34,896 bases of DNA from Nitrospira lenta (GTDB taxonomy: Bacteria; Nitrospirota; Nitrospiria; Nitrospirales; Nitrospiraceae). The DNA is taken from contig CAMDPZ010000015.1 of NCBI GenBank assembly GCA_945905765.1, positions 7,501-42,396 on the forward strand, written 5' to 3'. The position numbers and the translations under genes were made by a program. Numbering within the stretch: position 1 is the first letter of the stretch; each line of letters begins with the position of its first letter. Positions 151 to 8,949 of this stretch are shown here, one piece after another. Below the pieces are notes generated by a model. That model searched no databases and was not told the origin of the DNA. It saw only the letters and a program-made list of their open reading frames with translations.

Positions 151-303
151 TAGGAGTGTTTCTTTTTTGGTCCTCATCTCAATCCTCTGTTTCATGCGAC
201 AGAGCTGAATAATTATTACTCCATGATATCCATCTGTTACGGACTATTCCTGCCTCCCTTCCGTTGACTCATGGCGCTGCGCCCTGTAAGGTGAGGCACG
301 ACG

Positions 304-384
304 TATTGAGCCACGCCGACTGTCCCATCTCTCGCACTGCACTCCCTCCCACGTTCCTGTGCGTCTGATTCTCCGGTCTCCGCC
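304..384 (+). promoter_or_regulatory. Upstream element copy A
   Basis: tattgagccacgccgactgtcccatctctcgc...gcgtctgattctccggtctccgcc aligns with copies at 4372-4446 (+) and 8900-8823 (-). Lies 153 nt upstream of the CsbD-like start. Confidence 0.55.
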
Positions 385-537
385 GCTGCTACGCCAGAGT
401 GCCCATTGTTTGCCGCATATGTCGTGGTCCGCTATTGCTGTCTCCTGGAGGCAGGGTAGCTGGAACCATGAGATGCGTGCATGGGGGCATTTCCTATTTA
501 CGGCTGTCAGTACAATCATGTCTGAAAGGAGTGCCAG

Positions 538-783
538 ATGAATCAAGAACAATTCAGCGCGTTTTGGACCCAATTGAAGGCGCCACTTAAAGCGAAGTGG
601 GAGAAGATTACGGATGCGGATCTTCTGGAGATTGCGGGAAATCTTGTGACGTTCACAGCCGTGCTGGCGAAGCGCTATGGCGCAACCCAGAATGATGAGG
701 TGAATACCTGGGCCAATCGACGCTACTCCCATTGGAGCAGCAACTATACGAGTAAATATGCAGACCCAGTGAAGGTAGCCTGA
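538..783 (+). CDS. CsbD-like stress protein
   Basis: 81 aa; WTQLKAPLKAKWEKITDADLLEIAGN...KRYG matches the CsbD pattern (WKQLKGxxKxxWGKLTDDDLxxIxG...RYG). Start follows aaaggag. Confidence 0.8.
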   Translation: MNQEQFSAFWTQLKAPLKAKWEKITDADLLEIAGNLVTFTAVLAKRYGATQNDEVNTWANRRYSHWSSNYTSKYADPVKVA

Positions 784-4273: not shown

Positions 4274-4371
4274 GGGGCGACCTGTCGTACGTACAGTGCC
4301 GCGGTGATGGCTGATGGTGATTAATACTGCTTGACCAGGCTCGTTACGGCGTCTAGCATAGAGCGGTGCTG

Positions 4372-4446
4372 TGTTGAGCCTCGCTGACTGTTCTATCCCT
4401 CGCGCCTCAGGCTTCTCCCCGCGCGTTTGATTCCCCAGTCTCCGCC
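4372..4446 (+). promoter_or_regulatory. Upstream element copy B
   Basis: tgttgagcctcgctgactgttctatccctcgcgcct...gcgcgtttgattccccagtctccgcc; aligns with copies A and C. Lies 150 nt upstream of the GTG at 4597. Confidence 0.55.
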
Positions 4447-4596
4447 GGTCCTGTGTCGGAATGTTTCTGCAGTGCTGTGATAAATTCGTGGGTGTGATCA
4501 CCGGGATCTGGCTGAGCCGGTTCCTGGCTGGCACTGGAGTTCGCGGAGAGACGCGGATTCCTCTCGATAGCCCCCAACTGATGAAGGAGCGATACG

Positions 4597-4791
4597 GTGA
4601 CACCTGAAGAACAAATTACGAAGATGAAAAAAGCGATCACTCAGGCCTTGAAGGTGATGGGGGATCGCTTTGGGTCGACGGAAGCCGACGTGGCGAGGGC
4701 GATGGATGAGCTGAAGGCTTCCATGCAGACAGCTCCAGCCGCAACGGCTCAGCCTCCTCAGGCCCAGGCTGCTGTAGGCGCCGGGGCATAG
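4597..4791 (+). CDS. Small hypothetical protein (64 aa)
   Basis: GTG start with aaggag RBS 7 nt upstream; helical N-terminus with Ala/Pro/Gln-rich tail. Confidence 0.55.
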   Translation: MTPEEQITKMKKAITQALKVMGDRFGSTEADVARAMDELKASMQTAPAATAQPPQAQAAVGAGA

Positions 4792-6409: not shown

Positions 6410-6751
6410 TTAGAAGCGGCTGCGACCGCCGCGATCGCCACCGCCACCACCGCCACCGCTACCAAAACGACCACCGCCGCCGCCGCCGCCGCCGGTGCGG
6501 GGCTCTTGGGGCTTGGCTTCATTGACAGTCAGGGGACGGCCGTCCATCTGGGAGCCGTTCAATGCCGCAATCGCGGCCTTGGCTTCTTCCTGTGTGGCCA
6601 TCTCGACGAAGCCGAAGCCTCGTGATTGCCCGGTGAACTTATCCGTGATCACACGCGCAGACTCGACGGTGCCATGCGCGGCAAAGAGGGTGGTGAGCTG
6701 TGATTCAGTTGCCGCATAGGGCAACCCGCCGACATAAAGTTTTGAACCCAT
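6410..6751 (-). CDS. RRM RNA-binding protein with Gly-rich tail
   Basis: KLYVGGLPYAATESQLTTLFAAHG (RNP2), SRGFGFVEM (RNP1), GGGGGGGGRFGSGGGGGGGDRGGRSRF tail; aaggagg upstream of ATG at 6751. Confidence 0.92.
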   Translation of the reverse strand: MGSKLYVGGLPYAATESQLTTLFAAHGTVESARVITDKFTGQSRGFGFVEMATQEEAKAAIAALNGSQMDGRPLTVNEAKPQEPRTGGGGGGGGRFGSGGGGGGGDRGGRSRF

Positions 6752-7064
6752 GGGGGTTCCTCCTTCTGAAATTGATATTGTCTGCGACACGAGAACGAAC
6801 ACACGAGGGGAAGGAACGGGCCGAAGACGCGAACAATGAAGCGGCTTGGGTCGAACTTCCGATCAGATTCTCGGCAACAACAATATCGGTGATGGGCCGT
6901 TCTATTTGCTGTTTCATGCGAGGCCCGCCGCATGAGACAGAAGCATACTAACAGAGGTGTCTATGAAAAGCTATAGCCCCTGGTAGGCTGAATTGTCGGG
7001 ATCCAGTGGGGCAAGGTGAGGTCGGTCGAAGGACTGGGTGGCTGGAAGCGTGTAGTCGTCCACT

Positions 7065-7424: not shown

Positions 7425-7688
7425 TCAGGCGGGCTGGTTCGCGTAGGGTGTCACATAGAGCCTGAGGAGGTGGCCCTCCCATTCGGTGCCTTCAAGGGCG
7501 CTCACGGCGCTTACGGCCTGTTCGCCTGATCCCATTTCGACGAATCCGTATCCGGCTGACTTACCCGTATGTTTGAACCGGACGACGTAGGCTCTGGCAA
7601 CCAGGCCATAGGAGGCGAAGAGGCCGCGCAGCTCGCAGTCCGAAACCTTATCCGGGAGCCCTCCCACGTATAGAACCCGTTTCCCCAT
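7425..7688 (-). CDS. RRM RNA-binding protein, no Gly-rich tail
   Basis: RVLYVGGLPDKVSDCELRGLFASYG and SAGYGFVEMG motifs. Confidence 0.88.
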   Translation of the reverse strand: MGKRVLYVGGLPDKVSDCELRGLFASYGLVARAYVVRFKHTGKSAGYGFVEMGSGEQAVSAVSALEGTEWEGHLLRLYVTPYANQPA

Positions 7689-7708
7689 CAGCATCCCTTC
7701 GTGACCTG

Positions 7709-8638
7709 TTAGTTCGTTCGAGCGAGCGGATCTTCGACATACGAGCCGGTCCGCAGCGATGTCGCAAGCCCCAGTGAGGCGAGCCCGAGGATAAGCCATT
7801 TCGAGGGATCGAAGTGGTACCAGTTGGGACCGTTTCGGAAGTCGGTGGGATACATGTGATGGTAGTTATGATAGCCCTCGCCGAATGTGACGAGAGAGAC
7901 GAGCCAGCTATCCCGGCTGGAATCGGAGGTGCCGTGCGGTTGCCGTCCCCACAGATGACAGACGGAGTTGATGCAGAACGTCGAATTCAGCACGGCGAAT
8001 GTGCGGCCCAGACCGGCGAGGAGAAAGCAGCCTATTCCGCCCATGAGGCCGTTGTGAAGAAAGCCGATGAGGAACGTGCCTGCTAGTCCTGAGAGGACCA
8101 GGAGGGGGTAATGTTGATGTTGCCAGATCGCAACGGGGTCGTTTGCGACACGTGTTGCATATTTGGGGTCGGCGTATTGATCAGGGGTGAACAGCCATCC
8201 GCAGTGGCTATGCCAGAATCCCAGCTGCGCATTGTAGGGGTCCTTCTCGTCGTCGCAATGAGCATGGTGGCGTAGATGGTCGGAGGCCCACTTGATGGCG
8301 GAGTTTTGCAGGGCCCAGGCGCCTGCGATTAAGAGCGCACCCTTGACCCAGTTGGGGCAATCGAAGCTGCGATGGGCCATCAGCCGATGGTAGCCGACGG
8401 TAATACCCAGCCCGCTGACGACATAGAGCAGCCCGAAGAGCGACCAGTCCAGCCAGGTGTAATGGTAGAGGTATCCGTACAGCGGGACCCCGATCATGGC
8501 GCCCATGGCAATGGCGCAAAAGAGGATGATGGTCCAGATCTTGTTGTAGCGTCGGCTAATCGCGATCGGCATACCGGTGGGGGTGAGGGCGATCGTCGGT
8601 GTGCGTGGAGTCGTACGTTCTGGGGGCGTCTGATTCAT
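7709..8638 (-). CDS. Membrane fatty-acid (acyl-CoA-type) desaturase
   Basis: Histidine boxes HRLMAHRSF, HLRHHAHCD and HNYHHMYPTD; several transmembrane stretches. Confidence 0.9.
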   Translation of the reverse strand: MNQTPPERTTPRTPTIALTPTGMPIAISRRYNKIWTIILFCAIAMGAMIGVPLYGYLYHYTWLDWSLFGLLYVVSGLGITVGYHRLMAHRSFDCPNWVKGALLIAGAWALQNSAIKWASDHLRHHAHCDDEKDPYNAQLGFWHSHCGWLFTPDQYADPKYATRVANDPVAIWQHQHYPLLVLSGLAGTFLIGFLHNGLMGGIGCFLLAGLGRTFAVLNSTFCINSVCHLWGRQPHGTSDSSRDSWLVSLVTFGEGYHNYHHMYPTDFRNGPNWYHFDPSKWLILGLASLGLATSLRTGSYVEDPLARTN

Positions 8639-8822: not shown

Positions 8823-8900
8823 GGCGGAAACTAGAGCATCGGTCGCGCAGGATCTAGAGGGAGGGGAGGGAGGCGCGAGGGATAGAGTAGTGACCGAACT
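8823..8900 (-). promoter_or_regulatory. Upstream element copy C
   Basis: Minus strand gttcggtcactactctatccctcgcgcct...gcgcgaccgatgctctagtttccgcc; shares ctatccctcgcgcct exactly with copy B. Lies 184 nt upstream of the desaturase start. Confidence 0.5.
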
Positions 8901-8918
8901 TCATCTGGAAACACCATA

Positions 8919-8949
8919 GCATAGTTTCGCTGGGATAGCGAAGCTATGC
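8919..8949. other. Intergenic hairpin between divergent desaturase and helicase genes
   Basis: GCATAG-t-TTCGCT-gggat-AGCGAA-g-CTATGC: 12 paired bases with one internal mismatch. Confidence 0.55.

Follow-up and report, generated by a model that had tools for sequence, protein, structure and literature searches.

What do a CsbD-like protein, an orphan protein of 64 aa and a fatty acid desaturase have in common, that the same short sequence should precede all three of them in one window (here, the whole stretch of 34,896 nt that was analysed)? In soil, water and treatment plants, Nitrospira rank among the major nitrite oxidisers and comammox bacteria. Our literature searches returned nothing relevant on a Nitrospira RNA element or on RNA-level stress regulation in Nitrospira. 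The original prediction had noted two conserved blocks in each of three copies (A, B and C), separated by a pyrimidine-rich spacer of variable length, and had proposed a shared regulon element, a 5' UTR RNA element or an upstream small RNA.

Three related copies in one window

The likeness of copies A, B and C is not due to chance. Inside the 35-kb window BLASTN connects A with B (E=6e-6) and B with C (E=2.4e-4). A profile made from the copies of other genomes only matches the window at exactly A (E=1.9e-20), B (8.3e-23) and C (4.1e-8), and the next-best match has an E-value of 3.2. The similarity also lies above that of shuffled sequence: the top score in 60 Markov-shuffled windows is 9.4 bits, compared with 28.6 bits for copy C.

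The positions and orientations first given for A (304-384, +), B (4372-4446, +) and C (8900-8823, -) are correct, and so are the distances of 153, 150 and 184 nt from the element ends to the start codons (ATG at 538, GTG at 4597 and ATG at 8638 on the minus strand). Positions 304-384 are the core of the copy A rod, whose outer pairs extend it to about 302-393 (Table 1). In the genome that holds the window we found no further convincing copy besides these three (next E=0.135; the assembly is 90% complete and may miss others), and all three lie within 8.6 kb. A pattern match on another contig of this genome (L004) falls inside a pilQ/secretin-like coding sequence (gene identity by eye) and is a chance match.

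Table 1. Features of the window that bear on the three copies
Feature	Position	Strand	Basis
Promoter-like sequence of copy A	264..292	+	TTGACT (264-269), 17 nt, TAAGGT (287-292)
Copy A, full RNA rod	302..393	+	fold, pair counts; cmsearch E=3.3e-26 in its set
Copy A apical loop, pyrimidine-rich	338..358	+	fold
CsbD-like protein, 81 aa, led by copy A	538..783	+	Pfam CsbD E=0.0073, NCBIfam PRK10428 E=3.2e-8, both below cut-off
Promoter-like sequence of copy B	4331..4359	+	TTGACC, 17 nt, TAGCAT
Copy B RNA rod	4378..4449 (model span 4358-4462)	+	fold, cmsearch
Orphan protein, 64 aa, led by copy B	4597..4791	+	kept together with the element in about 25 of the collected copies
RRM protein	6410-6802		above NCBIfam cut-off for RNA-binding regulator
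RRM protein frame after desaturase, same strand	7425-7799	-	RRM_1 E=1.6e-14
Fatty acid desaturase led by copy C	7709..8638	-	Pfam FA_desaturase E=4e-19
Copy C RNA rod, most divergent of the three	8825..8896	-	fold
Possible -10 box of copy C, TATGGT	8913..8918	-	sequence

A conserved RNA rod

On comparative grounds, copies A, B and C are members of a structured RNA family of about 95 nt, and we are nearly certain that the conserved RNA structure is real. The two blocks described at the outset turn out to be both arms of one stem, a long hairpin, and the pyrimidine-rich spacer of variable length is its apical loop. In copy B, for example, GACTG pairs with CAGTC, ATC with GAT and CGCGC with GCGCG. 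Copies folded individually agree on one rod, in which short helices are split by near-symmetric internal loops that are almost purely pyrimidine. With the helices in parentheses, the 5' arm of copy A reads (CGUA) UUG (AGC) CA (CG) CC (GACUG) UCCC (AUC) UCU (CGCAC) up to the loop, and the 3' arm (GUGCG) UCU (GAU) UCUC (CGGUC) UC (CG) CC (GCU) GC (UACG).

We collected 140 copies and built a covariance model from 75 of them. In this building set, 87.8% of the base-pair cells are paired, compared with 25-42% when the partners are slid, and changes on both sides occur in 11 of 22 pairs. For 69 copies outside model building, 94.1% of the cells hold standard pairs (23-45% when slid), and 46 cells are compensatory with both sides changed, compared with 14.8 in shuffles and with none of 500 shuffles as high, figures that favour structure in so far as the alignment of these copies was fitted to the model. 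Covarying base pairs, which the original prediction had put forward as a check, are therefore present. GCGC/GCGC has become GCAC/GUGC in copy A; elsewhere CGCGC/GCGCG has become CGCGU/ACGCG, and AGC/GCU has become AAC/GUU. In copy C, helix P1 is maintained through compensating changes, with ACUA/UAGU in place of GACUG/CAGUC.

Over the 17 core pairs of both sets, G.U cells exceed A.C cells 128 to 23, hence the functional RNA is the strand that is read towards the gene. The opposite strand has the lower fold energy, yet it fits the pairing pattern more poorly. The outermost helix is the weakest, with 55% of its cells paired in the building set and 79% in the non-building copies. The folds of individual copies have only a small advantage over those of shuffled sequences (z -0.7 to -1.5), and it is therefore the comparison between copies that carries the evidence for structure. 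Run by itself, RNAalifold recovered no more than 4 pairs, since the others are obscured by gaps and by the symmetric internal loops; the rod pairs were taken from the single-copy folds and then counted. Conservation extends beyond pairing to the sequences of the loops.

Position between a putative promoter and the gene

In 122 of the 140 copies TTGAC lies upstream at a near-fixed distance, 17-34 nt before the model start and nearly always at 24-29 nt or a little beyond (to 31 nt), followed by a 17-nt spacer and a TAGSRT-like (-10-like) box. We infer a promoter from this arrangement. With usual promoter spacing, transcription is predicted to start about 5 nt before the rod, which would make the rod the 5' end of the message. 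Consensus scans for terminators and promoters gave nothing decisive apart from the promoter-like sequence of copy B.

TTGAC is absent from its usual upstream place in copy C. That place, just 5' of the copy, holds a 13-bp inverted repeat with one mismatch (8919-8949 on the minus strand, GCATAGCTTCGCT ATCCC AGCGAAACTATGC), which looks like a putative operator for the desaturase gene. Eight copies in the collection have no TTGAC (L093, L096, L103, L108, L110, L115, L119 and L109), mostly before one family of small secreted proteins; seven of them have in common another upstream sequence with a GGAAC-like block, and the position of the rod is unchanged. This sequence is possibly the promoter of another sigma factor. 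At L034 (1430-1480) a strong terminator-like inverted repeat (GAGGGAGGGCGG...CCGCCCTCCCTC then TTTG) lies directly 5' of the element and occupies the place of the usual promoter-like sequence.

On the downstream side, a conserved gene starts on the same strand within 480 nt of the rod in 83 of the 94 copies with enough flank, as against 23 of 94 in a mirror-image control. The original prediction had named matches scattered at random with respect to gene starts and orientation as its refutation, and this comparison did not refute it. The distance from rod to gene is mostly 50-190 nt, and this stretch is variable: in the group of the 64-aa orphan about 80 nt of it are missing in some species, with rod and gene kept. 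For a few copies no gene is evident at short distance downstream, among them one (L102, 1755+) that is followed by no gene for about 550 nt. Back-to-back pairs of elements, a few hundred bases or more apart, occur in L131, L143, L105, L142, L098 and L102, and such outward-facing pairs can presumably place a leader on both arms of a divergent gene pair.

No convincing intrinsic terminator lies between rod and gene for copies A or C. At the end of copy B there is one weak terminator-like stem (4445-4459), which is at chance level (5 found, 3.7 expected). A riboswitch or attenuator with an intrinsic terminator was rejected on these grounds; a riboswitch that acts on translation is still conceivable.

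By its compensating changes, its same-strand place upstream of genes and a promoter read from the sequence, the element is of a general kind, the structured 5' leader RNA; that it is a 5' leader we regard as very probable. Among the functions first proposed, the 5' UTR element is the one supported by covariation, strand-specific G.U pairs, the near-fixed promoter-like sequence and same-strand placement. Its sharing by a gene set is also borne out, and the set is of stress type. A separate upstream small RNA, though conceivable, gains no positive support.

Genes that follow the rod

The genes led by the rod encode CsbD-like, zinc-ribbon-like, IscA-like, DUF1328-like, BON/OsmY-like and lmo0937-like proteins, the 64-aa orphan, a 69-aa small protein, small secreted proteins and an RRM protein, and in the window also a fatty acid desaturase; some of these assignments lie below curated cut-offs and are named as resemblance. 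The 64-aa orphan has no match in Pfam or NCBIfam. Identical gene families are led in different genomes. The led genes are mutually unrelated and mostly of stress type, although the set is not purely so (IscA-like, and a 2-oxoacid oxidoreductase region). For Salmonella, YjbJ (CsbD) and YtjA (DUF1328) are listed among the small proteins under the control of the general stress sigma factor (PMC5437024).

Two neighbourhoods deserve mention. Between 6410 and 10484 of the window, two RRM frames, the fatty acid desaturase and a DEAD-box helicase stand together, as in cold-response gene sets. Downstream of the csbD-like gene, in this window as well as in related genomes and N. moscoviensis, comes the gene of a conserved protein of 114 aa (875-1219 on the plus strand; L199) that has no match in Pfam or NCBIfam.

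Distribution

With copy B alone as the query, 33 of 61 genomes yielded relatives, and many of these genomes had several matches. The covariance model has matches in 92 of 147 genomes of the order, at 1-11 copies per genome. In a sample of the phylum 68 of 296 genomes were positive, all in the same order save one genome from another family of the same class. A degenerate DNA pattern run over 84,980 bacterial and archaeal species returned 51 stretches, all from Nitrospirota and including Nitrospira moscoviensis; it had no match in viral contigs. The cultured N. moscoviensis has three copies: one before the csbD-like gene and the 114-aa gene, one before a pair of genes for a zinc-ribbon and a small helical protein, and a third in a region with a 2-oxoacid:ferredoxin oxidoreductase-like frame (identity by eye). 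Rfam 15 has no match in the window at gathering thresholds, and relaxed E-values added chance-level matches only, elsewhere, none of which we accept as an identity. Rfam lacks this RNA family, and within the range of our searches the family occurs in Nitrospirota alone.

Pairing of the loop with the Shine-Dalgarno region

Within its apical loop copy A has GCACTCC, the complement of a GGAGTGC that lies at the Shine-Dalgarno region of the csbD-like gene, a match found in the csbD subgroup only. When duplex energies are compared with those of shuffled loops, this subgroup alone stands above the shuffles; in the groups of the 64-aa and 69-aa proteins the duplexes are no better than shuffled ones. 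We rejected loop pairing as a mechanism of the whole family, given that only the csbD subgroup stood out and that one of its four close members is mismatched. An RNA thermometer of the ROSE or fourU type, which hides the Shine-Dalgarno site, was likewise rejected: the rod lies about 50-190 nt upstream, and among the groups compared only the csbD subgroup shows loop pairing above shuffles.

Known systems of a similar kind

The element is of a known kind, a structured 5' leader RNA. What is new is that it has no Rfam family, and what is unusual is that a stress-type gene set shares it. The usual way to tie unrelated stress genes together is a promoter or sigma factor in common, and for that reason a single RNA leader on all of them stands out. 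The RpoS/sigma-S general stress regulon of enteric bacteria also includes small CsbD (yjbJ) and DUF1328 (ytjA) proteins, but the signal its genes have in common is the sigma factor, whereas here it is an RNA leader plus promoter-like sequence (PMC5437024). The cspA-type cold-shock leaders of E. coli are 5' UTRs of 145-160 nt with a cold box (PMC6719143). They resemble our element in being long 5' leaders common to several genes, and a cold-box-like sequence occurs in 30 of the 140 copies; rod architecture and gene set differ, and the covariance model does not match the E. coli cspA region. Candidate cis-regulatory motifs in Rfam likewise have a conserved, covarying structure on the same strand upstream of genes, but the rod corresponds to none of the Rfam 15 families and is confined to Nitrospirota in our searches. 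The ompA leader is a 5'-terminal stem-loop that acts as a stabiliser. As is predicted here, its stem lies within a few nt of the 5' end of the message; in our case, however, the loops are conserved in sequence and one RNA is common to many unrelated genes.

A shared leader points to predicted control at the level of the message across stress-type genes of these nitrifiers. It is also a concrete handle, since it comes with a target list, a defined structure, a cultured host (N. moscoviensis) and point mutations that are expected to break or restore function.

Alternative explanations

The main rival is a direct RNA thermosensor, or cspA-type cold-shock leader, in which temperature would alter the fold and thereby translation. 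A predicted leader length of about 150-270 nt would suit it, as would the desaturase, RRM and DEAD-box genes that lie together in the window. Furthermore, the 30 copies mentioned above agree with the cspA cold box, which is present in the E. coli MG1655 cspA leader, at 9-10 of 11 positions close to their predicted 5' end, whereas none of 300 shuffled boxes does so. Because the matching columns share a common descent, this amounts to a single event; the remaining subfamilies show no match, and copy A a poorer one. Moreover, the rod should, by prediction, stay folded between 5 and 60 C, loop pairing with the Shine-Dalgarno region rises above shuffles in the csbD subgroup only, and the model finds no counterpart in the E. 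coli cspA leader. We think a thermosensor unlikely. About as improbable is a family of trans-acting sRNAs, whose copies would be independent or processed and whose C-rich loops would pair with many Shine-Dalgarno regions, the neighbouring gene being incidental or sharing the promoter. Such RNAs could well be discrete structured units of about 95 nt with their own promoter-like sequence and pyrimidine-rich loops, and the L102 copy with its gene-free downstream region would fit. But the copies consistently stand ahead of gene starts in the same orientation, the gene families that they lead recur in different genomes, and no convincing intrinsic terminator was found after A or C. In intrinsic terminators and gene placement, the element showed neither a convincing terminator of its own nor freedom from a fixed gene link, which speaks against an independent trans-acting sRNA; release by Rho or by processing is still conceivable.

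It is very unlikely that the element works as DNA, that is, as part of an extended promoter or as an operator for a stress sigma factor or transcription factor, with an RNA-like pairing that is coincidental. One could argue that the near-fixed spacing to a conserved -35-like sequence and the quasi-symmetric sequence are what such a site would have. Yet compensating changes and a one-strand excess of G.U are unexpected for a protein site in duplex DNA, the apical loop varies in length, and one subfamily combines the rod with a different upstream sequence. Least probable of all, to the point of being negligible, is a dispersed mobile or REP-like repeat: several partly palindromic copies per genome might suggest one, but there are only 1-11 of them (three in N. 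moscoviensis), none in viral contigs, and orientation as well as distance to promoter and gene are constrained. Copy number and constrained position equally contradict a REP/MITE repeat, which we rejected.

How the leader might act

Structure, strand, promoter-proximal position and sharing by unrelated genes are established computationally, and regulation of the downstream gene by the leader is predicted from them. We consider it probable, to a moderate degree, that a 5'-terminal rod leader coordinates stress-type mRNAs post-transcriptionally, presumably through a trans factor. Transcription would start a few nt before the rod, and the rod would remain part of the message, in most cases 50-190 nt upstream of the coding sequence, where it would most likely act in cis after transcription. 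Since loop sequences are conserved and not pairing alone, recognition by a factor is suggested: a shared trans factor could recognise the 5'-terminal rod with its conserved pyrimidine-rich internal and apical loops. Under stress, the putative signal, this factor would then determine how long the mRNAs of the whole set last or how well they are translated. That control of stability or translation is mediated by a protein is a tentative proposal. Slightly more doubtful still is the broader idea that Nitrospirales coordinate part of their general stress response via one shared 5'-terminal rod, with a dedicated RNA-binding protein (possibly a linked RRM protein) or direct temperature sensing switching unrelated mRNAs together after transcription.

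Possible factors would be a cold-shock-domain protein, a DEAD-box protein or the RRM RNA-binding proteins whose genes lie close by. The two RRM proteins of the window (6410-6802 and 7425-7799) are candidates by linkage only. A related cyanobacterial RRM protein, Rbp1, is required for cold adaptability (PMC9333190). RRM frames also occur after the element in L037 and further downstream in L098.
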